Of a stretch of DNA of 34,655 bases, positions 1,453 to 26,004 are shown piece after piece (the stretch's first letter is position 1; the number at the start of each line of letters is the position of its first letter). The notes beneath the pieces were generated by a model, which was not told the DNA's origin, made no database searches, and was given only the letters and a program-made list of their open reading frames with translations. The translations under genes and the position numbers were made by a program. The DNA comes from a virus: positions 1 to 34,655 of IMG/VR virus record IMGVR_UViG_3300007538_000089. One strand, 5' to 3'.

Positions 1453-4400
1453 TTAAGTAACTAAAGGGTGTAATGTTACACCTGATCTACCAGTTAGACT
1501 TGCAGTACCAAATGTACTAAATGTTTCCGTGCTATATTCCATAAAGTCACATCCGAACGAGCCTGCTGATAATGAAATACACCCTACATCAATTGCCGAC
1601 GAACCACCTAAGCGTGAGTCACCGTATACAATAGGGTCTCCTGACCATCCAGTTGTAGGTAATGTTGCTGTTACAGTTCTACAACTACTTGACTCGAAAT
1701 TATACGCTTCTACAATGTTTGTGTAAAATGTACTCCATCCTCCGCAAACATATCCGTCATACAATGACGCAATTCCTGCAGCTCCGTATCTACTTACAGA
1801 CAATGTTGCAGATGATTCTGCATACGTTTCGGAAGGTAGCTCGATACTATCTATAATATTTTTTACACTAGACGTAGTAATTCCTCCAGCAAAATAGCCA
1901 GTTGTTGTTTCTCCAATAGTAGTTAATTTTCTAAAAGACGCTAAATATCTTCTAGAAGATATTGTTGTAGAGATTTCTGCAATACTTGAGCTTGAAAAGT
2001 TTAGTGAGTCAATTCTTCCAGTGTACAATGAGCCGGAGTACATACCTCCTGCTATATAACCATTACTAAAAGAAGATACAACTCCGGCATAACCTCGAGC
2101 CCACGGTAAGTTGTATAATTCTAATGATACAAAATCTGTTGCTAATGACAGTTTGTCGATTGTATTGAAAGCAGTAGTAGATGTTGCACCGCCTACTATG
2201 TAAGCATGTGTTTCAGATGCAACACTTGCTGCTCCTTGTGTTGCTCTAATTAAATCAGCACTAAAGTTAAAAGTATTATTTGTAAAATTTATTTTTAATA
2301 CTTCCTTAGATGTGCCGCTAGTACCTCCTCCTCCTCCAAAAAAGTAACCAGTATTTATTGTTAAAACAACAGATGCAACATTATCACTGGGAGATTGAAC
2401 ACCTGCTAACGCCCATCTAGATATACTTAAAGTTGCAGTTAGTCGACGAACTATTTGAGATGAGAAGTCAAAACTATCTATCGATGCACCTCCTGCTACA
2501 CCTCCTGCCCAATAACCGTTAGAACTTGATTTAACTGCACCTGGATAAGCACGGTTTGCAATCAATGTAGCACTTGGATTAATAGCAGCTTCGTCTGCAA
2601 ATCGAATACCATCTATTGTGTTTACTTGAGTGGTTGTATGTCCTCCCCCAAAATATCCTTCAGTAGAAGATGACGTTCCGGTTAATGCTCGTCTGCTTTG
2701 GCTAAGAGTAGCACTTGGATTAATAGCAGCTTCGTCTGCAAATCGAATACCATCTATTACATTTAAGTTTGATCCATTATTGCCACCTCCAAAGTAACCG
2801 TTGTTAGGAGCTGAACAGCCTCCTAACCTATACCTGCCATACGTTAATCCTGCTGAAGGGTTTATAGCAGTTTCATCAGAAAATTGGATACCGTCAATTT
2901 CTGTGCTCGACGACGTTCCGCCTCCAGTATACCCTCTTGTCAACGATGAAACTCCAGCAGGTGATTCTCTTGAACTAACTAACGTAACACTTGGATTAAT
3001 AGCAGCTTCGTCTGAAAATCGAATACCGTCTATTACATTTGTAGTTCCGCCGCAAAAGTACCCGCTAGTTGACGACCATACACTTGCAGGGTGTCGTCTA
3101 GCAACACTCAACGAAGCAGACGGATTTATTGCGGTTTCATCTAAAAATTGAATCCCATCTATTATATTGTAATTTGTCGATACTCCGTCCCATCCACCTC
3201 CAAAATAACCTTTACCAGTTGTTAGTGTAGGATATTCTGTAATTAAAGAAGGTTGAACACCTGCTAATCCATATCTAATTACATTTAAAGTAGCTGTAGG
3301 ATTTACAATAGACTCGTCAGAAAACTTAACTCCGGTTATTGTATAGTTAGATAGTCCTGGGTAGCCTCCTCCAAAATACCCTCTTTCCGACGATGAAACT
3401 CCTGCAGGCGCAGATTTAGCTATTGGCAACACTGTGGCTATTGTTATTAACGATTCCGATGCAAATTGAATACTGTCGGTAATATTTTTAAGTGCAACAT
3501 CTGCTCCTCCACAAAAATAACCAATTTCAGACGATGCTACAGTTGATAAGTAATATCTGGCAACACTTAATGTTGCAGACGGAGTTGATGCAGTTTCTGT
3601 TGCAAATATAATACTATCTATAGTATCTGAGCTTTCACCGGTATATCCACCTGCAAAATAACCTTTTTGAGAATATGACAATCCTGTTAATCCCAATCTT
3701 GCAACGCTTAACTTTGCAGATGAGGTAGAAATTGTTTCATCTGAATATTGAAACTTTTCAATGTTATCAGTAACTAAATACCCTCCTCCAAAATAACCGT
3801 TAGTAATAGATGAAACTCCTGCTAAGTAACTTCTAGGAGCAGTTATCGTAATAGAAGGATTAACAGATGTTTCATCAGAAAATTTAATACCGTCAATTGC
3901 TGTTTGGTTTGAATTATTAAAACCACCTGCAAAATATCCATTTTCAGAACTTGAAACTCCTGCTAAGTAACTTCTAGAAGCAGTTAACGTAATAGAAGGA
4001 TTAACAGATGTTTCATCAGAAAATTTAATACCGTCTATTTCATTATAAAATACATCTACATATCGCCCACCTCCAAAGTAACCAGTACCTGTAGCAGAAA
4101 TTGGCAATGTTGATATAATTTCCGAAGGAGACTGAACACCTGCTAAATATCTTCTAGCGACGCTTAATGTGACTGATGGGTTTATGGATGTTTCATCTGA
4201 AAACTGGATGCCGTCTATTACGTTTGAGTATACGCCTGTGTCTCCACCTCCAAAATATCCTTTAGTTGCGCTTGATATACCTGCCGAAGCTCGTCTAGCT
4301 ACACTTAAAGTGGCTGAAGGATTAATTGCTGTCTCATCTGAGTATTGGATACCATCTATTACATTTAAGTTTGAGTCTGTAATGCCTCCACCAAAGTAGC

Positions 4401-7400
4401 CCCTAACTGCACTCGACACACCAGCCAAAGCATCCCTAGCAACGCTTAAAGTTGCTGAAGGATTAAGTGCTGTCTCGTTGGAAAACTGGATACCATCTAT
4501 TACATTTGAGTCTGATCCTGTAGAGCCACCACCGAAATAGCCTTTAATTGTGTTCGATACGCACGCTAGATAATATCTAGCAACACTTAAAGTTGCAGAA
4601 GAAATGATAGCCGTTTCATCTGAAAATTGAATACCATCTATTAGATTTGACGCTACACTTGACAAACCACCACCAAAATATCCTTTAGTTGTGCTTGAAG
4701 CACCTGCTAAACCACGTCTAGCAACACTTAAAGTGGCTGAAGGATTGATAGCGGTTTCATCAGAGAATTGGATACCATCTATTTCGTTTACGTCTGTATC
4801 TGTAAGACCACCTCCGAAATAGCCTTTAGCTGTGCTTGAGACGCTTGATAAACCACGTCTAGCAACACTCAAAGTAGCTGAGGGATTTATGGCTGTTTCA
4901 TCTGAAAACTGGATACCATCTATTTCGTTTAGGTTTACATCTGCAAGCCCACCTCCAAAATAGCCTTTTCCAGAAATAAAATTCGTTGATGTAGATACAG
5001 CAGATGAAGGAGTTTGAACACCTGCTGCTCCATACCTAGCAACACTTAAAGTAACAGAAGGGTTTATAGATGCTTCATTTAAAAAATTAATACCGTCTAT
5101 AGTGGATAATTCAGATCCACCATTTGTTCCACCTGCAAAATATCCATTTTCTGCTGATGAAACTCCTGCTATATACTGTCTAGCGGAGCTTAATGCTGCG
5201 ATTAACAGCGCAGATGTTTGATCTACATATCTAAAACTATCTATCAAGGTAGCATAGTTTATTCCAGCACTTCCTCCACCAAAATAGCCAGTTGTTGACG
5301 ATGCAATTCCAGATAGTCCTTGTCTAGCTGCGCTTAGTGTAGCTGATGGAGTTATTAATGTTTCATCGATAAAATTAATGCCATCTATAACATTAGAAAA
5401 TGTATTTGCATAACCTCCTCCAAAATATCCAGTATAATCTGATGATATTCCTGCTAGTAAATATCGAGCAACACTTAGTGTAACTAAGGGTGTTGATACT
5501 GTTTCATCTGAAAATTGAATACTATCGATTAAATCATATGCGGATGATGTTGTTCCTCCACAAAAGTATCCGTTATCTGTACCTGACACCCCTGCTAATT
5601 GCAATCTAGCAACACTTAAAGTAGCTGAAGGATTAATGGAGGTTTCATCAGAATATTGAATACCGTCTATTACATTAGAAGATAGTGTAGTATATCCTCC
5701 TCCAAAATATCCTTTATCTGTGCTTGAAACTCCTGCTAGATGCTGCCTAGCAACACTTAACGTAGCTGAAGGAGTTATAATAGTTTCATCAATAAACTGT
5801 ATTCCATCTATTACACTTGAGTTTTCAGTTGAGAATCCTCCTCCAAAATAGCCGTTTCCTGCAGAAGAAGTTGCTATTGTAGATAGAAATGCTGATGGAG
5901 TTTGGACACTTGCTAAAGCTTCTCTAGCAACACTTAAAGTTGCTGCTGGATTAATAGCTGTTTCGTCTGAGAATTGGATTCCATCTATTTCGTCTAAATT
6001 AATAGATGTCTGTCCCCCTCCGAAATAGCCTTTAGAGATTGACGAGACACCTTTCATACTATGTTTAGCGTAGATCATTGTAGCTGAAAGCAAAGAGATA
6101 GTTTCATTTGAATATTGAAACTTATCTATTACATCTGTGTATGTAGCTGAAAAAGCACTTGTAGCTCCCCCTGCAAAATAGCCAGTAACTGAAGTAGATA
6201 CTGTTGCTGCGGCATGTCTAGCAACACTTAAAGTTGCTGCTGGATTAATAGCTGTTTCGTCTGAGAATTGAATGCCGTCAATAGTAGCTACATCTCCTGA
6301 AACCCATCCTCCTCCAAAATATCCTTTATCTAAACTTGCAACACCTACTAAATCATACCGTGCCTGGCTTATTGTTGCGGAAGGGTTAATAGCTGTTTCA
6401 TCGGAAAATTGAATGCCATCTATTTCAGTCGATCGTGAGCTTGTATAGCCTCCGGCAAAATAACCTTTATTAGAACTTGATGCGCCTGCTAATACATGCC
6501 TAGCAACTGCTAATGTAGCTGAGGGATTTATAGCAGTTTCATCAGAGTACTGAATACCGTCTATTATGTCTGTATTTGTACCTGTGTGGCCTCCTCCAAA
6601 ATAACCTCTAATCGAACTGTTAACGCCAGCAAGCGCACGCCTAGCAACACTTACTGTAGCAGATGGGTTTATAGCTGTTTCGTCAGAAAACTGTATACCA
6701 TCTATTGTGTCATAAAGGGTTGGCGTCCAACCTCCTCCAAAATAACCGTTACCTGTTATATTAGTAGATGGTAAACAATCTACTTCTGGAAACGGTGAAG
6801 ATTCTGGAGTAAAGTTAGTAGTATATCGTGCTAAGCCTTTTGTTACACGAAGTTCATCTATGTAGCCATGCTCAAAATCACTATTAGTCGCACTGCCGCC
6901 TGTTGTAAACAATCTACTGGCTTCGGCTACATAGTTTGCAATACTAGCAGCTTCGTGAGAGCTTTCAAGCACCCCATCTACAAACATCCTTGTTGTAACA
7001 CCTTCTCTAGTTATAGCAATATGTTTCCAACCTGCATTTCTTACAACTGTTGTTGATACTAAAGATGCTCTGTTAACAAGTGTAGTTGCTCCATAAAATC
7101 TAATAACCCCAGAGCCTCCCCAACCAGTTGACGCTCCGTCTATTGTTATAAAAAAGCCAGAACCAGAGTCGTATTTTGAAGACGCAAGAAGGTAAGGGTA
7201 TGTGCCATAGGTACTATAAACGTGGTTTGTAAGTATATTTGCCCAAAACTCAATAGTCCAGTCCTCTGTTCCAAAATTAAAGGCATCAGATGGCAATGTT
7301 AAATAATCCTGATACCCGTCAAAATACCCCATCTGAGCAAACTTAACCGGCATATTCTCAACTGCTTTTGCATAAGGGGTTTTTGGCAAAGGAAAGTCTG

Positions 7401-8283
7401 CTGTGTATCTGGCAACGCCTTTTGTTACACGAAGTTCGTCAAGATAGCATCTTTCGTTTAATGCTGCCAAAAGGGAAGTTGATGCAGGCACTTCCCCAGT
7501 TGTCATTATTCGCGCCGCTTGAACTCCGTAGTTTGCAACTCCACTTGCTATGTGTAAAGATGTCATTACTCCATCTACAAACATCCTCGTTTCGACACCG
7601 TTTCGTGTTATAGCGATGTGTTTCCATCCTGCGTTTCTTATAACTACGTCACCTGACCCAACACTTGCTCTATTAACAAGCGTAGATGCTCCATTAAACG
7701 ACATTGCGCCAGTGCCACCCCATCCTGTAGCACTTCCACTTATTGTCAAATAAAATCCAGAGCCGGAGTTGTATCGTGAGCTTCCCATTGTATATGGATA
7801 CGTGTTAGAGTTTGTAAGGACGTTTATCCAAAACTCAATAGTCCAATCTTCTGTTCCAAAATCAAAGACGCTAGAGGGTAATGTTAAATAATCACCGCTT
7901 CCGTCAAAATAAGCACTTTGACCCCCGGCATATCCGGATGTAGAAGATATGCTGGGGGTTCCGCTCACTGATATAGTGTGGTTATTTTTACTACTATCCT
8001 TAAATGTAGTAGATCCTGCGTAACCATCCATTGATAACAGTAACTCAACAGAGTTGTAATACGGATCACCCTTTGCTTCTGTTATAAACGGAGTTCCTGT
8101 TGCAGATATAGAGTGTTGATAGTTGCTGCTATCAACAAATTCCCTAGAACCTTCTTCACCGTCCATGTGCATGAGCAAAGTTACTTTATCAAAATAAGTA
8201 GGAATACAACCACTTGTAGTAAAAGATTCAACTGTTGATAAGCTCGGTCCACTGCTCTCCCAAAAGAGTTTGTGAGCTAACAT
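1453..8283 (-). CDS. Giant LamG plus kelch-like beta-propeller adhesin / tail fibre
   Basis: A 2276-residue protein, the largest in the window. Residues about 30-510 hold LamG/concanavalin-A-like lectin folds: one complete copy (SAYFDGSGDYLTLP, DWTIEFW, GWKHIAITRNG, LDELRVTKG) and a second whose N-terminal strand appears separated from its remainder. From residue 513 to the end run 36 kelch-like blades of about 49 residues with the core GYFGGG, then IDGIQFSDET, then INPSATLSVAR. Every sixth blade ends in a longer linker (VQTPS or VQSPS), implying six six-bladed propellers in series. Both fold types bind glycans or proteins in other systems, so a host-surface adhesin is the natural reading. 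The ATG overlaps the stop of the upstream fibre gene as TAATG, so the two are probably translationally coupled. Exact virion position is unknown. Confidence 0.8.
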   Translation of the reverse strand: MLAHKLFWESSGPSLSTVESFTTSGCIPTYFDKVTLLMHMDGEEGSREFVDSSNYQHSISATGTPFITEAKGDPYYNSVELLLSMDGYAGSTTFKDSSKNNHTISVSGTPSISSTSGYAGGQSAYFDGSGDYLTLPSSVFDFGTEDWTIEFWINVLTNSNTYPYTMGSSRYNSGSGFYLTISGSATGWGGTGAMSFNGASTLVNRASVGSGDVVIRNAGWKHIAITRNGVETRMFVDGVMTSLHIASGVANYGVQAARIMTTGEVPASTSLLAALNERCYLDELRVTKGVARYTADFPLPKTPYAKAVENMPVKFAQMGYFDGYQDYLTLPSDAFNFGTEDWTIEFWANILTNHVYSTYGTYPYLLASSKYDSGSGFFITIDGASTGWGGSGVIRFYGATTLVNRASLVSTTVVRNAGWKHIAITREGVTTRMFVDGVLESSHEAASIANYVAEASRLFTTGGSATNSDFEHGYIDELRVTKGLARYTTNFTPESSPFPEVDCLPSTNITGNGYFGGGWTPTLYDTIDGIQFSDETAINPSATVSVARRALAGVNSSIRGYFGGGHTGTNTDIIDGIQYSDETAINPSATLAVARHVLAGASSSNKGYFAGGYTSSRSTEIDGIQFSDETAINPSATISQARYDLVGVASLDKGYFGGGWVSGDVATIDGIQFSDETAINPAATLSVARHAAATVSTSVTGYFAGGATSAFSATYTDVIDKFQYSNETISLLSATMIYAKHSMKGVSSISKGYFGGGQTSINLDEIDGIQFSDETAINPAATLSVAREALASVQTPSAFLSTIATSSAGNGYFGGGFSTENSSVIDGIQFIDETIITPSATLSVARQHLAGVSSTDKGYFGGGYTTLSSNVIDGIQYSDETSINPSATLSVARLQLAGVSGTDNGYFCGGTTSSAYDLIDSIQFSDETVSTPLVTLSVARYLLAGISSDYTGYFGGGYANTFSNVIDGINFIDETLITPSATLSAARQGLSGIASSTTGYFGGGSAGINYATLIDSFRYVDQTSALLIAALSSARQYIAGVSSAENGYFAGGTNGGSELSTIDGINFLNEASINPSVTLSVARYGAAGVQTPSSAVSTSTNFISGKGYFGGGLADVNLNEIDGIQFSDETAINPSATLSVARRGLSSVSSTAKGYFGGGLTDTDVNEIDGIQFSDETAINPSATLSVARRGLAGASSTTKGYFGGGLSSVASNLIDGIQFSDETAIISSATLSVARYYLACVSNTIKGYFGGGSTGSDSNVIDGIQFSNETALNPSATLSVARDALAGVSSAVRGYFGGGITDSNLNVIDGIQYSDETAINPSATLSVARRASAGISSATKGYFGGGDTGVYSNVIDGIQFSDETSINPSVTLSVARRYLAGVQSPSEIISTLPISATGTGYFGGGRYVDVFYNEIDGIKFSDETSVNPSITLTASRSYLAGVSSSENGYFAGGFNNSNQTAIDGIKFSDETSVNPSITITAPRSYLAGVSSITNGYFGGGYLVTDNIEKFQYSDETISTSSAKLSVARLGLTGLSYSQKGYFAGGYTGESSDTIDSIIFATETASTPSATLSVARYYLSTVASSEIGYFCGGADVALKNITDSIQFASESLITIATVLPIAKSAPAGVSSSERGYFGGGYPGLSNYTITGVKFSDESIVNPTATLNVIRYGLAGVQPSLITEYPTLTTGKGYFGGGWDGVSTNYNIIDGIQFLDETAINPSASLSVARRHPASVWSSTSGYFCGGTTNVIDGIRFSDEAAINPSVTLVSSRESPAGVSSLTRGYTGGGTSSSTEIDGIQFSDETAINPSAGLTYGRYRLGGCSAPNNGYFGGGNNGSNLNVIDGIRFADEAAINPSATLSQSRRALTGTSSSTEGYFGGGHTTTQVNTIDGIRFADEAAINPSATLIANRAYPGAVKSSSNGYWAGGVAGGASIDSFDFSSQIVRRLTATLSISRWALAGVQSPSDNVASVVLTINTGYFFGGGGGTSGTSKEVLKINFTNNTFNFSADLIRATQGAASVASETHAYIVGGATSTTAFNTIDKLSLATDFVSLELYNLPWARGYAGVVSSFSNGYIAGGMYSGSLYTGRIDSLNFSSSSIAEISTTISSRRYLASFRKLTTIGETTTGYFAGGITTSSVKNIIDSIELPSETYAESSATLSVSRYGAAGIASLYDGYVCGGWSTFYTNIVEAYNFESSSCRTVTATLPTTGWSGDPIVYGDSRLGGSSAIDVGCISLSAGSFGCDFMEYSTETFSTFGTASLTGRSGVTLHPLVT
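1456..6747 (-). repeat. 36 tandem kelch-like coding repeats, six groups of six
   Basis: Coding repeat of about 147 bp. Groups, set by the extended linkers, start (minus strand) at 6747, 5853, 4965, 4083, 3210 and 2349, which are residues 513, 811, 1107, 1401, 1692 and 1979, so each group is 287-298 residues. Blades in groups 1 and 3 are closest to each other and to the consensus. Group 6 is the most diverged, carries an additional linker after its third blade, and its final blade (MEYSTETFSTFGTASLTGR) lacks the GYFGGG strand in clear form. Confidence 0.85.
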
Positions 8284-9671
8284 TATGCGAATCCTCCTTT
8301 ATGCCAAGCTTTAGTTTTTACATCACTATCTTTTCGGTAAAAACCAATCAATGACTTTGAAGTTAATGTCGGTACTCCACTTTCACCCCAATCCCAATTT
8401 GCTCCCCATATAATTGAATATGTATCACCGTTTATAATTTCAATTGATCCCCATACTGACTGTTGTGTTCCGAAAGAAACTGTAGGAACTTCTATTGTAA
8501 CATTGCCGCTTAATGTAATAAAAAAATCGTTTGCATACGCAGTACAATCTGGAGTATATGTTCCTCCAGCTATAACTCCATCGTTTCGATATGACGTTAG
8601 AACTTGATCTAAACTAATTTGTTTAGTCAAATCTGATTTTAGTATTTTATTTGCAGATCCATTATCAATAACTAAGTAATCAGTATTCGAAGACGATGTT
8701 GTAGCTGTTAGGGCTGATATTGAAAATTCATTTCCTGCTGACCCTGTATAACCTAAATCACCTTGTGCTCCAAGCGATGCAGCTATTTGCCAAGTAGAGC
8801 CGTCGTAAATAAACTCGTAACTAATTCCTGCTATCGATAAAGAAACATTGTCACTAACTCCTTCAATAGTTGACCCATTTCTATCTACTAACAAGTTATT
8901 AGTTTCAAAATTAGCTACGTCTGCAATTTGGATATAACTTCCTATAGTCGGAGACAACGGTAAGGTAATTGTAAATGATCCTGCAGAAGTATCTGCCATG
9001 ATTCTATCATTTTCTACAGCAGTATAATTTGCAGTTTTAAATATCCAATCAGACATTCCGTTAGTACCGTCTGCTCCGCTCGAGCCGGTATAACCTAAAT
9101 CACCACTTGATCCCGTATAACCAGTTGTACCTTGTGAGCCATTGTATCCAACTGATCCAGTGTATCCTTGAGCTCCTTGTACTCCGATAGTTGTTGTTAG
9201 ATGCCAGGTAGTTCCATTGTAGATAAATTCGTAAGTAATTCCACTTATCGACAATAGGATGTTGTCTGCAACATCTTCGATTGTTAAACCATTTCTATCT
9301 ATAGTTAAATTATTAATTTCAAAGTCACTACCGTCTGTAATTTGAACATAACTTCCTACAGTAGGTGTCGAAGGGAGAAATACAGTAAATGACCCGCTCG
9401 ACGTATCTGCCATAATTCTATCGTTTTCTACGGCTGTGTAGTTTGCAGTCTTAACTAACCAATCCGAATAACCATTATTACCTTGTGAGCCAGTATATCC
9501 AATCGTACCTTGTGAACCGTTATATCCAACTGACCCAGTATATCCAATCGTACCTTGTGATCCGGAGTATCCAACTGACCCGGAGTATCCCGGAGTACCT
9601 TTTGATCCGGAGTATCCGGGATCGCCTACTAGCAATGTTGCTTGTAATAAAGTTTGAATATCTACTGCCAT
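8283..9671 (-). CDS. Collagen-like tail fibre protein with duplicated beta module
   Basis: 462 residues. The N-terminus MAVDIQTLLQATL is followed by Gly-X-Y triplets (GYSGSVGYSGSQGTIGYTGS), a beta-rich module of about 90 residues starting DWLVKTANYTAVENDRIM, a second collagen-like run, a second copy of the module (DWIFKTANYTAVENDRIM), and a C-terminal beta domain with TYTPDCTAYANDFFITL. The module also occurs in the partial gene at 1-542. Such proteins form trimeric fibre shafts with globular inserts. The N-terminal tag is shared with the proteins at 9706-10206 and 11406-12551, suggesting a common docking site. The stop overlaps the start of the giant adhesin by one base (TAATG). Structural role is confident from composition; the receptor is unknown. 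Confidence 0.8.
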   Translation of the reverse strand: MAVDIQTLLQATLLVGDPGYSGSKGTPGYSGSVGYSGSQGTIGYTGSVGYNGSQGTIGYTGSQGNNGYSDWLVKTANYTAVENDRIMADTSSGSFTVFLPSTPTVGSYVQITDGSDFEINNLTIDRNGLTIEDVADNILLSISGITYEFIYNGTTWHLTTTIGVQGAQGYTGSVGYNGSQGTTGYTGSSGDLGYTGSSGADGTNGMSDWIFKTANYTAVENDRIMADTSAGSFTITLPLSPTIGSYIQIADVANFETNNLLVDRNGSTIEGVSDNVSLSIAGISYEFIYDGSTWQIAASLGAQGDLGYTGSAGNEFSISALTATTSSSNTDYLVIDNGSANKILKSDLTKQISLDQVLTSYRNDGVIAGGTYTPDCTAYANDFFITLSGNVTIEVPTVSFGTQQSVWGSIEIINGDTYSIIWGANWDWGESGVPTLTSKSLIGFYRKDSDVKTKAWHKGGFA

Positions 9672-10770: not shown

Positions 10771-11406
10771 TTAGCTTACATAGAAAGATAACGCATTCGT
10801 ACACCAATCAGCACTATACAATCCTGATTCGGAACGAACGGTTGAACTACCAGTTGTATCCACAAATTCATCAACAACTCTAAAATTAGTTAAACTACCG
10901 TCTGCAGTACCTAATAATCGTTGATTAGTTCCTGATACAGTTCCAATGTTGCTGTTATTTGGTGCTTTACAAAAATGTGACACTATTAATGCTGGAACGG
11001 TATTTATTGTTTGTGAAGTAGTTGACGCATTTGTTCCATTACTATTGTTAGTTGATGTGTTACTATAAGTGATCGACCCACTTAACGGTCGATATTGAAT
11101 TACACCACATTGTGTTCTATCTTGACTGTTTCCTAATGTGAAATCTGTTTCCGAACCGTCAGATATTTTATAAAAGGTAGCAATTCGTGTTTGTCCTCCT
11201 TGTGTAAAACTAGCAGCTAACGTCCATCCGGAAGGAGTTGTTGTGTCTCCTCCGCTACACACGCATAACACTAATAAATCACCTGCTTGTAAATCGGTTG
11301 TTGGAATATCTACTGTTGGTAAACTTCCTGATGACATATTTCCAACCGAAACAAAATCAATAGATAACGGTATTGATGAAGTGGATAATAATTTATTAAA
11401 AATCAT
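10771..11406 (-). CDS. Beta-sandwich virion protein (start corrected)
   Basis: The preferred start is the ATG at 11404-11406, giving MIFNKLLSTSSIPLSIDF and 211 residues; its A overlaps the last base of the upstream stop in a TAATG arrangement used repeatedly in this module. A longer frame to 11454 exists but would overlap the upstream fibre gene by 49 bases and begins with a basic, low-likelihood peptide. The protein is rich in Thr, Ser and Gly with beta-strand patterning (LQAGDLLVLCVCSGGD, then TTTPSGWTLAASF). This pattern is common in phage and bacterial surface proteins with immunoglobulin-like or lectin-like sandwiches. Probably a minor fibre or tip component; not assigned to a named family. 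Confidence 0.65.
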   Translation of the reverse strand: MIFNKLLSTSSIPLSIDFVSVGNMSSGSLPTVDIPTTDLQAGDLLVLCVCSGGDTTTPSGWTLAASFTQGGQTRIATFYKISDGSETDFTLGNSQDRTQCGVIQYRPLSGSITYSNTSTNNSNGTNASTTSQTINTVPALIVSHFCKAPNNSNIGTVSGTNQRLLGTADGSLTNFRVVDEFVDTTGSSTVRSESGLYSADWCTNALSFYVS

Positions 11407-12551
11407 TAAGCATCTCCTACTCTTGCTCCGTAGATTACAGAACCAACTTTCCATAATGTTATTACGGTATATCCAGTAGTGTTTAATGTTGGTGCTGTTC
11501 CACCATCAGTTTTCCATGTAATAGATAAAGAAGTCCATGTAATAGTATAATCTGTACCATCATCTATCATTAATGTAATAGATTGGCCATCATTCCATGT
11601 TCCAGCAGTTGGTGTAGAAGATGCTGTTAAAGTCCATGTTTGAATTGAACCATTAGTAGGAGATAATGCTGGAGTAGTTCCAGTTACGGCAAATACTTCT
11701 TCGGTATAACCGTCATTTAAGATTGCACCTGATAAAGTATTATTAGATATTGGTTTCCAATCAGTTCCTCCAATATTCCTGTATAATAATTCTGTGCTAG
11801 TATCGTAATGTAATGCAACTGCTCCAGCATGCGGCCTAGTAATAGATCCTGTAGGAGTACCGTTGCTACTGTTAATCCATAAGAAATCTGAAGTTGCAGT
11901 TGTTGCTAGTTGTGCATTACCGACTATTATATCACCGTTAGTAACTATAATCCCAGAAGTTGTTACTGTTCCAGTACTTGGATTATATGTTAATTTTGAC
12001 GAACTGGTATAAATTGTATCTAATACACCGGTACTTACAGTTGTATACGTTACAAATCGTTCCGAATTATCTGTTAAATTGTCAGTAATAGTAACATTAC
12101 TTGTAGACCCCGTATAACCAATTATACCTTGTGATCCATCATATCCGACTGATCCAGTATAACCAGTTGTACCTTGTGAGCCAGTATAACCTAAATCACC
12201 ACTTGATCCATCATACCCAACTGATCCCGTATAACCAATTATACCTTGTGAGCCGGTATAACCTAAATCACCACTTGATCCATCATACCCAACTGATCCA
12301 GAATATCCTGTAGTACCTTGTGAGCCAGTATAACCTAAATCACCACTTGATCCCGTATAACCAATTGTACCTTGTGAACCATCATATCCAACTGATCCAG
12401 CATATCCTGTAGTACCTTGTGAGCCAGTATATCCAATTGTACCTTGTGAACCATCATATCCAACTGATCCAGTATAACCAATTATACCTTGTGAGCCATC
12501 GTATCCTGCAATTAACGTAGATTGCAAAAGTGTTTTAACGTCAACGGTCAT
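11406..12551 (-). CDS. Collagen-like tail fibre protein
   Basis: 381 residues. The tag MTVDVKTLLQSTLIA is followed by about 45 uninterrupted Gly-X-Y triplets (residues 16-150) built from GYDGSQ, GYTGSV and GYTGSSGDL units, with no proline in the Y positions. A beta-rich globular part follows: GNAQLATTATSDFLWINS, then LHYDTSTELLYRN, a motif common in phage fibre proteins. The C-terminal segment (WTLTASSTPTAGTWNDGQS, then YTITWTSLSITWK) resembles other phage tail-tip domains. It heads a tightly packed pair, its stop overlapping the next ATG as TAATG. A trimeric fibre shaft with terminal knob is the expected structure. Confidence 0.78.
   Translation of the reverse strand: MTVDVKTLLQSTLIAGYDGSQGIIGYTGSVGYDGSQGTIGYTGSQGTTGYAGSVGYDGSQGTIGYTGSSGDLGYTGSQGTTGYSGSVGYDGSSGDLGYTGSQGIIGYTGSVGYDGSSGDLGYTGSQGTTGYTGSVGYDGSQGIIGYTGSTSNVTITDNLTDNSERFVTYTTVSTGVLDTIYTSSSKLTYNPSTGTVTTSGIIVTNGDIIVGNAQLATTATSDFLWINSSNGTPTGSITRPHAGAVALHYDTSTELLYRNIGGTDWKPISNNTLSGAILNDGYTEEVFAVTGTTPALSPTNGSIQTWTLTASSTPTAGTWNDGQSITLMIDDGTDYTITWTSLSITWKTDGGTAPTLNTTGYTVITLWKVGSVIYGARVGDA
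12102..12506 (-). repeat. Collagen-like Gly-X-Y coding repeat
   Basis: About 405 bp encoding 45 Gly-X-Y triplets. Tyr or Ser regularly fills the X position and Thr, Asp, Gln or Val the Y position. The DNA units (complement of ggttatactgg and ggttatgatgg) are near-identical in 18-27-bp blocks, which would favour slippage or recombination between copies and with the related stretch at 9480-9640. Confidence 0.8.
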
Positions 12552-15140: not shown

Positions 15141-16712
15141 ATGATTAAACAATTACAACTGTTAGTTGAAACAACTTCATCGAAACAATTATCATCTAAA
15201 TTAAAACAAAATAAAGAACTTTTTGCATTTGTTCAATCTTATTTTGGTAATACTATTTCAGAAAAAATATACAATGTTTTACATCCAAATTTAAATGTTT
15301 GTATACACAATAATCATAAGAAATTTGTTAGCTTTCAACAAGGATATAAAAATTGTGGCAGGGCTTCTGTATGCCAATGTACTCGTGATTCTGTTAGCAG
15401 TTCAGTATCAAAAAGTAAGCAAGAGTATTCAGATGATAAGAAACAAGAAATTAATCATAAAAGGTCTCAAACTTGTTTAAGTAAGTACGGTGTTGCTAAC
15501 GTGGGGCAATCTGCTACAGCAAAGAAAGCTCATTCCGATTTTTATAATAATAAACATAATGTTAATCGTGTAACTCAGCAAATTAAAAATACAAAGGAAT
15601 TAAGGTATGGTAATGAGAATTACGTTAATACTGAAAAAATGAAATCAACTTGGAAGTTAAGATATGGAATAGATTACTGGGCAAATCGATGTAATAATGA
15701 AAATTTGTTAACATTACATAATAAAGAAGATCTCGATCAGTTATTTCAATTGTATTCCATCGAAGATATTTCTTCTAAATTGAATGTACACCCACAAACA
15801 GTCTATAAATATTTAAATAAACATCAACTTAGATCTCCATTTAAAAGTTTAGAGGAAGAAGAACTAGTTAAATTTATTCAATCTCTTGGAATCAATAATA
15901 TTGTTAGAAATACTAGGACGTTAATACCAAGTAAAAAAGAAATTGATATTTATTTACCTGATTTCAATATAGCATTTGAATATAATGGTGTATACTGGCA
16001 TCACGAATTAATCGAACATATTGATAAAAATTATCATTATAATAAATTTTTAGAGTGTCAACAAAAAGATATTCAATTGATAACTATATTTTCTACATTT
16101 TGGAAAAGTAAACCTAATATTGTTAAACAAATTATAAGAAATAAATTAAAATTGCAAGCTAATTCCGTATACGCTAGATCGTGTAATATTGTATTGTTAA
16201 CATCAAAAGATATTCGTGAATTTTTAAATACTAATCATATTCAAGGATATACTCCAGCTTCAATTGTATATGGATTATCTTACAACAATGAGTTAGTAGC
16301 AGTTATGACGTTTAGTAAACCTAGATTAGGAATAGGAAAATTAGAAGATAATTGTTATGAATTAGTAAGATTTGCTAGTTCAAAAAGAGTAGTAGGTGGT
16401 GCCGGAAAATTATTAAAAGCATTTGAAAGAGATTATTTACCTAAAAAACTAATCTCTTATTCAGATAATGAATGGAGTGTTGGAAAATTATATCAATCAT
16501 TAAACTTTACATTAGATACTAATATAAAACCAAGTTATTGGTATGTAAAGCCAAAAGAAGAACGATTAATCCATCGATTTAATTATTCTAAACAAAAATT
16601 AGTTAAAATGGGTTTTGATCCAAATAAGTCTGAAAAACAAATCACATCGGAAATAGGGTTATTAAAAATTTGGGATTGTGGTAAAATGAAGTGGATTAAA
16701 GAGTACAAATGA
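15141..16712 (+). CDS. Homing-endonuclease-like protein (Vsr/EDxHD-type nuclease plus GNAT/Mom-like domain)
   Basis: 523 residues. In order: a Cys-containing segment (CIHN at about 53, then NCGRASVCQCT at about 71-81) that may bind zinc; three copies of a K-x-RYG or K-x-KYG motif (SKYGVANVG, LRYGNENYV, LRYGIDYWA); a helix-turn-helix (IEDISSKLNVHPQTVYKYL, about 206-225); a nuclease core with KEIDIYLPDFNIAFEYNG followed by VYWHHE (about 265-290), which fits the Vsr-like EDxHD homing endonucleases; and a C-terminal part (YELVRFASSKRVVGGAGKLL, then ISYSDNEWSVGKLYQSLNF) that resembles GNAT or Mom-type folds. It is transcribed against all neighbours and overlaps the next gene by ATGA. The ribosome-binding site is weak. 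A mobile homing endonuclease is likely; function of the C-terminal domain is open. Confidence 0.75.
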   Translation: MIKQLQLLVETTSSKQLSSKLKQNKELFAFVQSYFGNTISEKIYNVLHPNLNVCIHNNHKKFVSFQQGYKNCGRASVCQCTRDSVSSSVSKSKQEYSDDKKQEINHKRSQTCLSKYGVANVGQSATAKKAHSDFYNNKHNVNRVTQQIKNTKELRYGNENYVNTEKMKSTWKLRYGIDYWANRCNNENLLTLHNKEDLDQLFQLYSIEDISSKLNVHPQTVYKYLNKHQLRSPFKSLEEEELVKFIQSLGINNIVRNTRTLIPSKKEIDIYLPDFNIAFEYNGVYWHHELIEHIDKNYHYNKFLECQQKDIQLITIFSTFWKSKPNIVKQIIRNKLKLQANSVYARSCNIVLLTSKDIREFLNTNHIQGYTPASIVYGLSYNNELVAVMTFSKPRLGIGKLEDNCYELVRFASSKRVVGGAGKLLKAFERDYLPKKLISYSDNEWSVGKLYQSLNFTLDTNIKPSYWYVKPKEERLIHRFNYSKQKLVKMGFDPNKSEKQITSEIGLLKIWDCGKMKWIKEYK

Positions 16713-18136
16713 AACAAGAAATTTTAGATATTATTAACAATAATCCAAAAACTTATCATACTATTATTAAAAAAGATAAAGATATGTTAGATTGGGTTGA
16801 AAATAACACATTATCAGCTTCGAATCATTTCAAAACTAAGCTATACAGCGCAATTTACCATATATCCGACATTTGCCCTTATGGGAGTCAGTTAACTGTG
16901 CATAGGTGGGTTAATGGATTTAAACGATGCGGGCCTGCAAGTGTTTGTAATTGTACTCAAACTAAGATTTCAAATTCTATGAAATCAGCATGTAAAAATA
17001 GATCATCAGCTGAACAAGAGTTAATTAATCAAAAAAGAAAATCAACTATGTTAAAAAAGTACGGTGTGGAATATAACTCACAACGAGATGATTTTCCTGT
17101 CCGTATACAAATTGACAAATCTATTTTTGATTTATTGTCATCTAAACAATGGCTTGAACATGAGTACGTTGCTAAGGCAAGATCAGCTTTGGACATTGCT
17201 AGTGAGTTAAATGTCGATTATTCCACTGTGTTATTTTACTGTCAGAAACATAAATTCGATATACGCCAATACACTCATACTTCAAAAAAAGAATCTCAAA
17301 TCAAAACATATATAGAAACATTAGGATTTGATATAGTTCAAAGTGATCGGTCTTTGTTAGATGGTAAAGAAATTGATCTATGGATTCCTGAAAAGAACTT
17401 AGCTATCGAAGTTAACGGTTTATATTGGCACTCTTATCATCCATCATTAAACAAACTTGAATCATTAGTCAAATACAATCATTTAAATAAAACTAAACTA
17501 TCTCAAGAAAAAAATATTCAACTACTTCATATAACTGACTTCGAATGGCGTAACAAACCAGATATTGTTAAATCAATTATACTTTCAAAATTGTTAACTA
17601 ATATCAAAGTATATGCTAGAAAATGCTGTATAAGCGTTATAGACACAGGTACAGCGAGAAACTTTTTAAATAAGTATCACATACAAGGATTTATAGGATC
17701 GCATCTATACGTTGGTTTGTTTCACAATAATGACCTTGTTATGGTTGGAAGTGCTGGATCAAATCGATTTATCAAAAATTCAATAGAATTACATCGATTA
17801 TCAACGGTATCAAATACAACAGTAGTAGGAGGAGCTTCTAAAATAGTTAAGTATATAAGCAACTACTACAAGTCACCTATTATTTCTTACTGCGATAGAA
17901 GTAAATCAAATGGTAATGTATATCAATCTATTGGCTTTAAAAAGATAAAAGAAACAAAACCTAATTACTTCTGGACTGATGGAACTAACATTATTAGTAG
18001 ACAAAAAACAGTGAAAAGTTCTTTAGAAAACTGGCTTCCTTCGTATGATCCTTCATTAAGCCAAACTGAAAATATGTTTGCTGCAGGATTTAGAAGGTAT
18101 TGGGATTGTGGTAATTTTGTATTCTTGTACAAATAG
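16709..18136 (+). CDS. Second homing-endonuclease-like protein, paralogue of the upstream gene
   Basis: 475 residues with the same architecture as its neighbour: Cys motif (FKRCGPASVCNCTQ), one KKYGVEYNSQ motif instead of three, helix-turn-helix (ALDIASELNVDYSTVLFYC), nuclease core (KEIDLWIPEKNLAIEVNG then LYWHS, about 220-243), a downstream IQLLHITDFEW strand, and the GNAT/Mom-like C-terminus (IELHRLSTVSNTTVVGGASK, then SYCDRSKSNGNVYQSIGF). Both proteins end in a W-D-C-G motif (RYWDCGNFVF here, KIWDCGKMKW upstream). Sequences have diverged well beyond recent duplication. The start overlaps the upstream stop as ATGA, so translation is probably coupled. Position next to gp23 suggests that gp23 or its flank is the cleavage target; this is inference. 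Confidence 0.75.
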   Translation: MKQEILDIINNNPKTYHTIIKKDKDMLDWVENNTLSASNHFKTKLYSAIYHISDICPYGSQLTVHRWVNGFKRCGPASVCNCTQTKISNSMKSACKNRSSAEQELINQKRKSTMLKKYGVEYNSQRDDFPVRIQIDKSIFDLLSSKQWLEHEYVAKARSALDIASELNVDYSTVLFYCQKHKFDIRQYTHTSKKESQIKTYIETLGFDIVQSDRSLLDGKEIDLWIPEKNLAIEVNGLYWHSYHPSLNKLESLVKYNHLNKTKLSQEKNIQLLHITDFEWRNKPDIVKSIILSKLLTNIKVYARKCCISVIDTGTARNFLNKYHIQGFIGSHLYVGLFHNNDLVMVGSAGSNRFIKNSIELHRLSTVSNTTVVGGASKIVKYISNYYKSPIISYCDRSKSNGNVYQSIGFKKIKETKPNYFWTDGTNIISRQKTVKSSLENWLPSYDPSLSQTENMFAAGFRRYWDCGNFVFLYK

Positions 18137-21223: not shown

Positions 21224-22207
21224 TTATTTTGCTCGACTAGATAATTTATTCAATGTACTGTTAGCTGATTTATCTGCTTGATCTGCTTTGCCTTTTTTCT
21301 CAGCACCATGACCTGGTTGCTTAGAAGAAAATGCTTTACCAGCTTTACCACCTGGTACATTAATATTTCCAGTTTTCATATCAGTAGGATTTTGCTTGTT
21401 TAATGCAGAACCTTTAATTTTAGATCCTTTTCCCACTTCTGCACCTTTTTCAACAGTATTTCTAACTATGTTGCTTGCAGTGCCGCCCATGTCATTTTTT
21501 TTAGAAGGTAATGCACTTTTAGTATTTTGGCCGTTATCACCACCAATTTTTGCACCAAACCCACCGTTTACTTTTTCTACATATTCACGCATTTGTTCAG
21601 TAGGAGAATATGACTCTTTTGGCATAGCAGGCTCTTCATCTTCCATGTCTTCCATGTCTTCATCTTCCATGTCTTCCATGTCTTCATCTTCCATGTCTTC
21701 CATGTCTTCATCTTCCATGTCTTCCATGTCTTCATCTTCCATGTCTTCCATGTCATCGAAGTTTTCTTCACCTTCTTCGTTAGCCATCATTTGTTCAAAT
21801 TCTGCTTTTAAATCTTCTAATGCGTCTTCAAGATCAACTACTCGACTTTCCATATCGTCGCCTTCATCGTCCATGTCTTCATCGTCCATGTCACTCATAA
21901 AGTCATCAGTTTCGTCACCACCGATTTCGTCGGATTCGTCAAAATCTTCTACGTTGTCCCAATCGTATTCTTCTTCATCTTCATCGTCTAAGCTATCAAC
22001 ATAACTGTCATCATCGTCATCAAAATCATCAGATTCTTCTAAATCTTCATCGTCCATGTCGTCGTCTTTGTAATCGCTTTCTAATAACGACTCATAAATA
22101 TTACGAGATTTTTCAACTACAATCTCGTGAAATAATTCCTGTGCTGCTTCTTTTTCTTCATTAACAAGAAATTCAAGCATTTTTTTAAATTTTGCCAAAT
22201 TTGCCAT
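21224..22207 (-). CDS. Acidic prohead core protein (gp67/gp68-like)
   Basis: 327 residues. The N-terminus (MANLAKFKKMLEFLVNEEKE, then LFHEIVVEKSRNIYESLL) resembles the gp68-type core proteins of T4-like phages. Residues about 45-205 are extremely acidic with Asp/Glu/Met runs, including five copies of DMEDMEDE. The C-terminal third is basic and glycine-rich (VEKGAEVGKGSKIKGSALNK). The charge-split plan suits a core protein that is degraded by gp21 or packs against DNA or scaffold. It is placed immediately before gp21, where gene 68 sits in T4. The assignment is by position and N-terminal motif; the acidic segment is not diagnostic. Confidence 0.7.
   Translation of the reverse strand: MANLAKFKKMLEFLVNEEKEAAQELFHEIVVEKSRNIYESLLESDYKDDDMDDEDLEESDDFDDDDDSYVDSLDDEDEEEYDWDNVEDFDESDEIGGDETDDFMSDMDDEDMDDEGDDMESRVVDLEDALEDLKAEFEQMMANEEGEENFDDMEDMEDEDMEDMEDEDMEDMEDEDMEDMEDEDMEDMEDEEPAMPKESYSPTEQMREYVEKVNGGFGAKIGGDNGQNTKSALPSKKNDMGGTASNIVRNTVEKGAEVGKGSKIKGSALNKQNPTDMKTGNINVPGGKAGKAFSSKQPGHGAEKKGKADQADKSANSTLNKLSSRAK
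21635..21754 (-). repeat. Five 24-bp coding repeats (DMEDMEDE)
   Basis: Five near-perfect 24-bp units in frame within the acidic core protein. Nucleotide identity between units is almost complete, so they look recently expanded and prone to slippage; a change of one unit would add or remove eight acidic residues without breaking the frame. Confidence 0.9.
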
Positions 22208-23175: not shown

Positions 23176-26004
23176 TTAAGCTACCGGTGGTTGAGCTCCT
23201 GCTGCCGGCGGCATTTCACCTCCTTCTGCTGGCATTTCACCACCTTCTACTGGCATTTCATCCATAGGCAACTCTGATTCAATGCCTCCCATATCTACAC
23301 CGATTGACGTAGAGTTAATGCCTAAATCCCGCATTTCGCTAGAAGAATCTGCATCTAATCCTGTTAGATTTTCCTCATTTTCTTCTCTCCATAAACGTTC
23401 GTTTTCTGCAATTTCATCTGCAGTTAATCCTAAAAATCGTTTAAGTGCATATCTATTAGAAATATACGGTAATGCTGCCATCTGTGTAAATGTTGGAATT
23501 CTAGCATTATCAATTTCACTTTGTCTATATGCTGCAAAGTTTTTTGGAGGTTGAAATTTTAAATCAAACATAGAAACATCAATATTTACTCCATGTTCTA
23601 GTAAGTACTTTTTAAATTCTTTATCAAATTCATTTATTAATAAACTTTGTAATCTTTCACAATATGTATTAAACCGTAATTCTTGAATATATGCAGTGCC
23701 TACCCTACCGTCATTATATTGGCTGGATGCATCTTCTGCTCCTGTTGGTAAGTAGCTCGATGGTATTCTTAATCCTCTAACTAATTTATTAGTAAAGTAT
23801 TTTAAATCATCAATTTCACCTAAGTTAGTTCCACCTGGTAATGTTTCAACCTTTGAGCCTCGTCCTTCGGAAGTTTGTGGGAAAAAGTAGTCTTCGTTGA
23901 TTGAATTTTTAACAAAAATTCCACTATCAATTGCAAACGTATGATAATTATGCCATTTTTCTGTTCCATCAATAGTAATAGTACCAGTATCTCTGTTTGA
24001 TACTTTTTCAATTTTAACTACTCTATGATTAAAGTTGTCTATTTCGTTAACAAAAGATTTCCAATTTTTATAGCCAAAAGATTTTAGTGTAAAATTAAGT
24101 TTTGAATGTCCAAATTTATTAAAATCTTTGTTACACTGTGCATTTTTGTAATCAAATTGAGTACTATTGCTATTTTTAACCATTTCTACAACTTGATTTT
24201 TGTTAGTATATCCTTGTTTAACATAATCAGCAATTTTTTGCAAGACTTCAAATGTAATCGAGGATTGTTGAGTTTTAATCTTAATTTGAGAGTCTTTTAA
24301 TTTAGACAATCGACGTTTTTTTTCATTAAAATTTAATTCTTTCCAATCTTGTTTAGTTGTATCTAATATTTTTTTACTAATTACATCTCTTTGCAGTTGT
24401 GAAACATTATTCCAAAAATTACCATTAATGGATGAATGATATAATGTAAAATCGTCAATATTCATATATTGTAAGTTTCTAGGATCATTATTAAATCTAT
24501 TAAAATCTTTATGATTAATAGTTGTTTTTTCTAATCCTTTATGTTCTGTTAAAAATGTAAACTCTTGATGTTTATTTTGCTTTTTAAAAAACTTTCCAAC
24601 AATATCATGAGTCCATCTCCAGTTCTTTTCAGAATGATCCCATACTTGTTGGTAATTAGTTGTTTCATCAGTTGATATTGACTTATTTCTTCTATTAAAT
24701 GAAATTAAGCTATCTTTATCTGTTAAATCTTTAGCTTCTACAAATCCTTTGCCAAACACAGGTATTTTGTGATCTGGAGTACAAGTTAATGTTTCTCCAT
24801 TATCTAATGTAATTTTAATCACTTCTGTATTTTTTCTAGTTACACCTGCCCAGTTAATTACTCCTGGTACAACTTCGCCTGTTTCTGGATTACAACTGTA
24901 CGCCCAATTTTCCTTTCCTTGTTCAAACTCTACTATTAATTCATTTAATGTTAAAGTTCTACCATCTAATAATGGGATTTTAGTTGTTAAATCTAAGCAC
25001 AATGGGTTATATGCTGCATCAATTACTGATTGTCCACCACCTGTTGCACTAGGTATTCTACGTTGATGTATTTCTGTTTTAACTCTTTCTACAAATTGCA
25101 TAGCAAGATGTGATGGCATATTACCTACGTCTACATAAAATACCCTACGTTCGGGTGCTCGTTGTACCCGATATATAATAATTGCATCTTCTAGTAATTC
25201 TTTTTGTTTATACACTTTAAAGATAATTTCTAAAAGGCTAGTTCCAAATGGAAAATTATTATCTAATCCTTCTGATAAGCTTAAATGTATTACATGTTTT
25301 GCATCAACTGTAACTTCAGTTTCGGTGGTATTAAATCTAGAAGTATTAACTGCTCTAGTTTGCCCAACTAATCCATTTGCATTACCAACCGGTTGATATT
25401 GCGAAGTGCCTCCTGTTATATTCCCAGTAGACTCTCGAGGTGTAGTTGCAATTCCATGTACAAAGTTAAAATTAATATTTTCTAATACATATTGTTCAGG
25501 TACTTTTCCTTCTGACTCGTTAACAATAACCCTTGTTACATTCATAGGATCTATATGATACCATTTTTTTGTTTCTGGATCTCTAAGAAAAAATTGATCA
25601 CCATATTTGAAAGTGTTTCGAACTGTTCTAAACATTCTAGTTTCAAAATTTTGCAACTTACACCATTGCCGTAAATATTGTAGTATAATTGTTACTTCTG
25701 AATTAGTAGCTTCTTGATTATAATCTATAATGAAAGGCGTATTATTTAATGTATTTTTTTGGGTACAAAATTCTGCTAATATATCTAATGCTGCATTAAC
25801 TTCAGAATCAAGATCCATTGTATTATATTGGCCGTATCTATCAATTCTATTTGGAGCTCCTACATACACATCTGGAAGATAACTTGAATAGTTTGATCTA
25901 GCAGGCCCTACGTTTTTGTTAGATGAGCCGTATGTTAATGGACTACTGGTACCATTAGTCGATTGATTGGTTTTTGCGGGTGTAAAATATTTACGCCATG
26001 ACAT
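23176..26004 (-). CDS. 20: Portal vertex protein gp20 interrupted by an intein
   Basis: 942 residues as translated; removing the intein (336-700) leaves 577, typical for gp20 of T4-like aquatic phages. N-extein landmarks are NRIDRYGQYNTMDLDSEVNA, FKYGDQFFLRDPETKKWYHI, and IIYRVQRAPERRVFYVDVGN. The C-extein resumes at SINEDYFFPQTSEGRGSKVE, then TLPGGTNLGEIDDLKYF and LRIPSSYLPTG. The portal forms the dodecameric vertex that nucleates head assembly and conducts DNA. The insertion splits YNPL from SINEDYFF at a strongly conserved part of the portal. The C-terminus has short GGEMP repeats. Splicing is required for a working portal, so intein activity matters to the phage. Confidence 0.93.
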   Translation of the reverse strand: MSWRKYFTPAKTNQSTNGTSSPLTYGSSNKNVGPARSNYSSYLPDVYVGAPNRIDRYGQYNTMDLDSEVNAALDILAEFCTQKNTLNNTPFIIDYNQEATNSEVTIILQYLRQWCKLQNFETRMFRTVRNTFKYGDQFFLRDPETKKWYHIDPMNVTRVIVNESEGKVPEQYVLENINFNFVHGIATTPRESTGNITGGTSQYQPVGNANGLVGQTRAVNTSRFNTTETEVTVDAKHVIHLSLSEGLDNNFPFGTSLLEIIFKVYKQKELLEDAIIIYRVQRAPERRVFYVDVGNMPSHLAMQFVERVKTEIHQRRIPSATGGGQSVIDAAYNPLCLDLTTKIPLLDGRTLTLNELIVEFEQGKENWAYSCNPETGEVVPGVINWAGVTRKNTEVIKITLDNGETLTCTPDHKIPVFGKGFVEAKDLTDKDSLISFNRRNKSISTDETTNYQQVWDHSEKNWRWTHDIVGKFFKKQNKHQEFTFLTEHKGLEKTTINHKDFNRFNNDPRNLQYMNIDDFTLYHSSINGNFWNNVSQLQRDVISKKILDTTKQDWKELNFNEKKRRLSKLKDSQIKIKTQQSSITFEVLQKIADYVKQGYTNKNQVVEMVKNSNSTQFDYKNAQCNKDFNKFGHSKLNFTLKSFGYKNWKSFVNEIDNFNHRVVKIEKVSNRDTGTITIDGTEKWHNYHTFAIDSGIFVKNSINEDYFFPQTSEGRGSKVETLPGGTNLGEIDDLKYFTNKLVRGLRIPSSYLPTGAEDASSQYNDGRVGTAYIQELRFNTYCERLQSLLINEFDKEFKKYLLEHGVNIDVSMFDLKFQPPKNFAAYRQSEIDNARIPTFTQMAALPYISNRYALKRFLGLTADEIAENERLWREENEENLTGLDADSSSEMRDLGINSTSIGVDMGGIESELPMDEMPVEGGEMPAEGGEMPPAAGAQPPVA
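23905..24999 (-). mobile_element. Intein with HNH homing-endonuclease domain in the portal gene
   Basis: Residues 336-700 of the portal frame (365 residues). Splicing motifs: Cys1 in CLDLTTKIPLLDGRTLTL; block B in TLTCTPDHKIPV (Thr-x-x-His); C-terminal block in NYHTFAIDSGIFVKN with terminal Asn, and Ser as the +1 residue. The penultimate residue is Lys where His is usual. The insert between the splicing halves carries an HNH signature (TINHKDFNRFNNDPRNLQYM followed by FTLYHSS), indicating a homing endonuclease, plus a Lys/Asn-rich helical part that could bind DNA. Splicing and homing are inferred from motifs. Confidence 0.9.

Follow-up and report, generated by a model that had tools for sequence, protein, structure and literature searches.

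In animals, the extracellular chains of LRP1 and LRP6 each carry several complete six-bladed rings, as tandem YWTD propellers. A Keap1-type kelch ring is closed by its C-terminal strand, so that the chain is cut between strands a and b of one blade, and its BC and DA loops face the ligand. In phages, kelch proteins have already been described from jumbo phages (PMC5259590, PMC7760394), and LamG domains from jumbo-phage virions (PMC7824862). Jumbo phage CBB bears 119-nm tail hairs, the genes of which were not named by the authors; kelch proteins were reported from the same phage, and one of them, CBB_552, was detected in virions by mass spectrometry (PMC5259590). The open-access papers searched yielded neither a protein with six complete rings nor a viral family whose members are counted in whole rings.

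We read the CBB region CBB_548-554, a cluster encoding virion proteins, and found LamG proteins (CBB_548 and CBB_551) together with proteins of a single kelch ring (CBB_550, CBB_552 and CBB_554), the two kinds of gene alternating along the cluster. A peptide resembling MLPFxRLxEYxN is common to the N-termini of these LamG and kelch proteins, CBB_549, CBB_553 and the protein at the CBB_536 position. The protein analyzed here, of 2276 amino acids, is encoded at 1453..8283 on the minus strand of a viral record that is a 34,655-base fragment (the window). Like the CBB cluster it contains both LamG and kelch domains, fused here but split in CBB among genes that encode a single ring or a single LamG domain. 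Comparison of its rings with a CBB kelch protein detected no homology, and the CBB peptide differs from its own N-terminal peptide. The likeness to CBB is thus one of kind and setting and is no evidence of common descent. Even so, when genes that form a cluster in one genome are fused in another, they may be presumed often to act together.

Domain layout of the 2276-residue protein

All features described in this section lie on the minus strand. The open reading frame starts with the peptide MLAHKLFWESSG (8248..8283), a putative virion-docking segment. One single-ring relative (from locus L012) starts with the comparable MLAHRLIS, and a scan for further proteins beginning MLAHKxFW found none. 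Two Laminin_G_3 domains precede the blades, and these are the lectin folds that the original prediction had placed ahead of the propellers (PF13385, E = 7e-26; 91.6 bits against the curated Pfam cut-off of 27.6). The first covers about residues 63-305 (7369..8097) and matches PHROG 24074/3545; the second covers about residues 318-500 (6784..7332), with its best PF13385 stretch at 322-480. The two are 58% identical.

The blade region was predicted to occupy 1456-6747, and it does run from blade 1 to the last codon ahead of the stop. It contains 35 GY-x-x-GG blade starts at residues 513-2177, plus a degenerate 36th blade. Blade starts are 43-51 residues apart inside groups and 56-60 residues apart only after blades 6, 12, 18, 24 and 30, exactly where longer VQ-type linkers had been proposed. 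No other spacing exceeds 54, the value after blade 33. By chance, the five longest of 34 spacings would coincide with these five places with a probability of 1/278,256. The linkers, located by blade spacing, begin with VQTPS, VQTPS, VQSPS, VQPS and VQSPS in order: VQTPSAFLSTIATSSAGN (5854..5907), VQTPSSAVSTSTNFISGK (4966..5019), VQSPSEIISTLPISATGT (4084..4137), VQPSLITEYPTLTTGK (3211..3258) and VQSPSDNVASVVLTINT (2350..2400).

The linkers delimit six groups of six blades: ring 1 (blades 1-6, residues 505-797; 5893..6771), ring 2 (blades 7-12, residues 803-1093; 5005..5877), ring 3 (blades 13-18, residues 1099-1387; 4123..4989), ring 4 (blades 19-24, residues 1393-1680; 3244..4107), ring 5 (blades 25-30, residues 1684-1966; 2386..3234) and ring 6 (blades 31-36, residues 1971-2276; 1456..2373). 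The group lengths of 287-298 amino acids are as claimed beforehand. Ring 6 is the most divergent, with 32% identity to ring 3, and its last blade is degenerate. That blade had been called recognizable; it is in register, but at residues 2245-2270 it scores just 1.7 bits with an iterated blade HMM. It is weak, and the call rests mainly on the register and on the length of the last group, 298 amino acids.

Predicted fold of the rings

According to the original prediction the chain folds into six propellers of six blades each, with the linkers as borders, and a structure model had been named as the check. AlphaFold2 was run on rings 2 and 3, which formed the first row of a 111-row alignment of two-ring sequences from relatives; the blade register was kept in all but two rows. 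The model had a pLDDT of 94.9 and a pTM of 0.66, and it fell below pLDDT 50 only at residues 1-3 and at residues 292-300, which are the inter-ring linker (VQTPSSAVSTSTNFISGK). High local with moderate global confidence is the pattern expected when a flexible joint connects two rigid domains. An earlier model from an 11-row alignment of ring pairs was discarded (pLDDT 31.5).

A Foldseek search of the PDB matched half of the model to the designed protein SAKe6 (7on7) with a TM score of 0.93 and 1.8 A over 281 columns. The same half matched the complete six-bladed rings of Keap1 and KLHL12 with TM scores of about 0.9. By sequence, a ring profile also found solved kelch proteins (9tsn, 5.8e-10; KLHL12, 3e-7). 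Against the Pfam kelch models rings 1-5 give hardly any match, and ring 3 none at all; ring 6 exceeds the Kelch_1 cut-off (22.9 versus 20.1 bits, E = 6e-5), and one relative passes PF24681. Ring closure is read from the fold match, and rings 1, 4, 5 and 6 were taken as kelch rings by homology.

In kelch terms the linker follows strand a (..LAGVQ) and precedes strand b (GYFGGG), so that the last strand of a group would complete its first blade. GY-x-x-GG, the di-glycine motif that closes strand b, is nearly invariant in the 36 blades here and among 1,521 distinct blades of the family. With Keap1, KLHL12 and SAKe6 the predicted rings thus share the six-bladed kelch fold, closure by a C-terminal strand and the di-glycine after strand b. 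They differ in their blade signature, GYFGGG..IDGIQFSDET, which is not the usual kelch sequence, in the presence of six rings per chain and in the lack of a BTB domain. Tandem complete six-bladed rings are also a feature of LRP1 and LRP6, but these belong to another propeller family and have EGF modules between rings, where the phage protein has short linkers. Overall, six six-bladed kelch rings in this protein are a well-supported prediction.

Sequence entropy is concentrated in two stretches of the blade, whether computed over the 36 blades of this protein or over the 1,521 distinct blades: columns 7-14, which separate GYFGGG from ID, and columns 37-38, which directly follow the conserved R. 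By kelch topology these columns are the predicted BC and DA loops. The pattern would fit a constant scaffold with a changing putative ligand face, and since the variation lies in loops of that presumed face, each ring probably has its own binding surface.

Blade counts in relatives and the origin of the rings

The same blade family is represented by PHROG 19111 and Synechococcus phage S-SKS1 (Llyrvirus), with E = 2e-273 to the PHROG, 40% identity and a function entry of 'unknown function'. The S-SKS1 blade proteins have two rings with the linker after blade 6, and the genes are frameshift-broken in that record. They differ from the protein analyzed here in having no LamG and in their short N-terminal segment, ..NFESWPESATY.

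A census of about 100 loci gave 104 distinct complete open reading frames with at least three blades; frame-broken ones (S-SKS1, L074 and L036) were excluded and no base was altered. In 98 of the 104 the number of blades is 6, 12, 18, 24 or 36, counts which are not independent trials, the proteins being related to each other. Stand-alone six-blade proteins occur at L009 (5′-open), L010, L012 (two), L013 and L017, and several of them terminate in a GVQS/VQW motif, as do the ring ends of the 2276-residue protein. A second 36-blade protein, of 1823 amino acids and again with six groups of six, is encoded at L011. Of the 113 ring junctions in the 85 proteins that have at least two rings, 107 rank with the longest spacings in the protein concerned, and the mean spacing is 59.8 at junctions versus 48.4 elsewhere.

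One of the six non-conforming counts, that of AG-345-L05, is 18 blades in three groups when read by eye; a scan seeded with its ring found no relative. A blade number that is not a multiple of six had been named as an observation that would speak against six-bladed rings. It occurs in five distinct intact proteins of the 104, with 17, 16, 10, 10 and 7 blades; on that count the prediction fails in part, but their other rings stay at six. The arrangements are 6|5|6 (L099, also in L105 and L106), 6|4|6 (L106), 6|4 (L049) and 4|6 (L085); the fifth, on the 2.1-kb contig L079, has seven blades and no linker. The first four keep their linkers and miss blades inside one ring, and so give no pointer to another ring size. 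Repeats are a main cause of fragmented assemblies (PMC9238414), and the blades of these exceptions are very alike, so collapse during short-read assembly is possible; the missing blades could reflect either this or real loss.

Could the 36 blades instead form seven- or eight-bladed rings or an open superhelix, with the linkers as ordinary loop insertions? Rings of seven or eight blades are known from other propeller families, and the relatives with 7, 10, 16 or 17 blades could be read in the same way. Against this, AlphaFold2 and Foldseek gave six-bladed kelch rings for rings 2 and 3, stand-alone proteins of six blades exist, and nearly all relatives carry multiples of six. We regard such an arrangement as scarcely credible. 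The division into six-bladed propellers at the linkers, as originally proposed, is supported by the structure model, the fold match, the one-ring relatives and the census, and the family appears to lengthen and shorten mainly by whole rings.

Within the 2276-residue protein, identity is 48.7% between blades of the same ring, 45.9% between those at the same position in different rings and 43.7% for other pairs; both the same-ring and the same-position excesses lay above all 5,000 permutations. By DNA, the closest blade pairs are mostly from one ring and often neighbors (13/14, 84%; 19/20; 16/17). In a tree of rings, rings 1-5 group loosely with the L012 single-ring proteins (94/94, just under the program's star threshold), and ring 6 is a long branch placed elsewhere. 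A recent duplication of whole rings was considered and rejected: in-register similarity is barely above shifted similarity and codon identity at identical residues is hardly raised. The suggestion that whole propellers were duplicated is therefore only partly upheld: the loose grouping of rings 1-5 and the slightly higher in-register similarity favor it, but the closest blades are neighbors within a ring. Similarity at both levels suggests that old whole-ring duplication and later single-blade copying both seem to have contributed. Propellers are described as arising by single-blade amplification (Afanasieva et al., PMC6805158), and ring amplification would here be a second level on top of this.

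Tail-fiber setting and proposed role

The neighboring genes in the window include gp23, a prohead protease, a gp20-type portal and a match to a T4 baseplate protein; judged by these, the phage is T4-like. Its gp23 is closest to those of Vibrio phage 2.275.O (349 kb, 72%) and Sinorhizobium phage Phosso (469 kb, 71%) and is 68% identical to those of Erwinia and Serratia phages of about 355 kb. With its nearest gp23 relatives in phages of 349-469 kb, this is probably a jumbo phage, and one probably related to the Rak2/CBB group.

The propeller gene sits in a tail-fiber region. Directly upstream is a collagen-like tail-fiber gene (8283..9671, minus strand; Pfam Collagen 3e-16, tail-fiber PHROGs), the stop codon of which overlaps the propeller-gene start, and a second one in the same cluster lies at 11406..12551 on the minus strand (Pfam Collagen, tail-fiber PHROGs). 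In Vibrio phage 2.275.O tail-collar and short-tail-fiber genes likewise follow the capsid gene. The setting is similar at two other loci. At L011 a gene resembling long tail fibers and baseplate wedge initiators immediately precedes the six-ring gene; LamG-type genes ahead of the latter match phrog_24074, as does the LamG part here, and terminase and sheath genes come after it. At L063 ring genes are near tail-fiber genes.

From this context, the domains and the pattern of variation we consider it likely that the protein is a multivalent virion adhesin of a T4-like phage. Its short N-terminal segment would attach it to the particle, and two LamG lectin domains followed by six kelch propellers would form beads on a string with flexible linkers. 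Every ring would close on itself, the C-terminal strand of a group completing its first blade. The rings would share a conserved scaffold and differ in the BC and DA loops, so that each could offer its own surface, possibly of differing specificity, for a glycan or protein of the host surface, and the family would gain and lose mainly whole rings. The multivalent receptor reader originally suggested would fit both gene context and loop variability.

Enzymes and adaptors are known among kelch rings, and there are weak matches to Pfam Kelch_3 and Kelch_4, models named after galactose oxidase; the protein could then be a non-virion enzyme or kelch adaptor acting in or around the infected cell. 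However, Pfam found no BTB or other adaptor domain, the variable positions give no hint of a set of conserved catalytic residues, and the LamG domains and tail-fiber neighbors point to the particle. Such a role is highly improbable.

A stronger competitor accepts the rings as real but sees the protein mainly as a structural or decorative filament like the hairs of CBB and phAPEC6, holding the particle close to cells or surfaces by weak entanglement and reading no specific receptors. The related jumbo phage CBB does have tail hairs, kelch and LamG proteins are among the structural proteins specific to it (PMC5259590), and phAPEC6 hairs are flexible (PMC7247149). Yet the variation lies in presumed ligand-face loops and is not spread across the surface, a plain filament would have no need of LamG lectin domains, and kelch is not mentioned in the phAPEC6 paper (PMC7247149). 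We therefore think the filament role unlikely and prefer the multivalent adhesin.

A wider proposal has two parts. In the first, the complete kelch ring is the unit of adhesin evolution: chains of one, two, three, four or six rings with diverging BC and DA loops would give a flexible chain with a panel of binding sites. In the second, the LamG-kelch assemblies of jumbo phages, fused here and separately docked in CBB, would be parts of the hairs. That both hold together is conceivable, but we put it forward tentatively.

For most marine and jumbo phages, the annotation of adhesins as 'hypothetical' leaves host recognition without an explanation. A family of about a hundred viral proteins now gains a firm fold, a likely ligand face and a rule by which its domains can be counted, and the hairs of some jumbo phages, so far unexplained, acquire candidate genes. 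It has become testable whether the addition of whole propellers lets phages widen or tune their binding.

Further genes of the window

The gp20-type portal protein (942 aa; window 23176-26004, minus strand) carries an intein-like insert at residues 344-670, which was matched by Pfam Intein_splicing. For the 1521-aa ORF adjoining the portal gene (26028-30593, minus strand), only a sub-threshold match was obtained in Pfam, and comparison with PHROG gave no match. Two neighbouring ORFs of 523 and 475 aa (15141-18136, plus strand), both resembling PHROG homing/HNH endonucleases, are located between the cluster of collagen-like tail-fibre genes and the capsid gene, in the opposite strand to these. 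Within the 327-aa ORF adjoining the head protease, a 24-base unit is repeated perfectly in tandem, in 5.1 copies (21633-21754).

Blade family in bacteria and in phage S-SKS1

Proteins consisting of a single six-bladed ring of the window's blade family were identified on several contigs of the Patescibacteria MAG GMC10_bin_59 (JAOZKL01, L034-L038). In L034 the single-ring gene is surrounded by ordinary bacterial genes (LGT, YibE/F and tRNA methyltransferase); the blade family is therefore present in candidate-phyla bacteria too. Blade genes of Synechococcus phage S-SKS1 (HQ633071.1; L019, L021) are split by frameshifts or record ends. These splits could be explained either by sequencing errors in the repeats or by real breaks.

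LamG-kelch combinations and CBB virion proteins

In one gene of marine virus AG-345-L05 (L020:20161-22701), two groups of kelch blades flank a LamG-like lectin domain. This gene is a further LamG-kelch combination besides the window propeller protein.

At least eight proteins of jumbo phage CBB (KU574722.1, about 344368-355464) have in common an N-terminal peptide like MLPFxRLxEYxN. The bodies behind it differ (LamG, kelch or unassigned), and most of these proteins are annotated as structural. Their sequences suggest interchangeable modules on one putative docking peptide, and the genes encoding them are possibly the hair genes of CBB.
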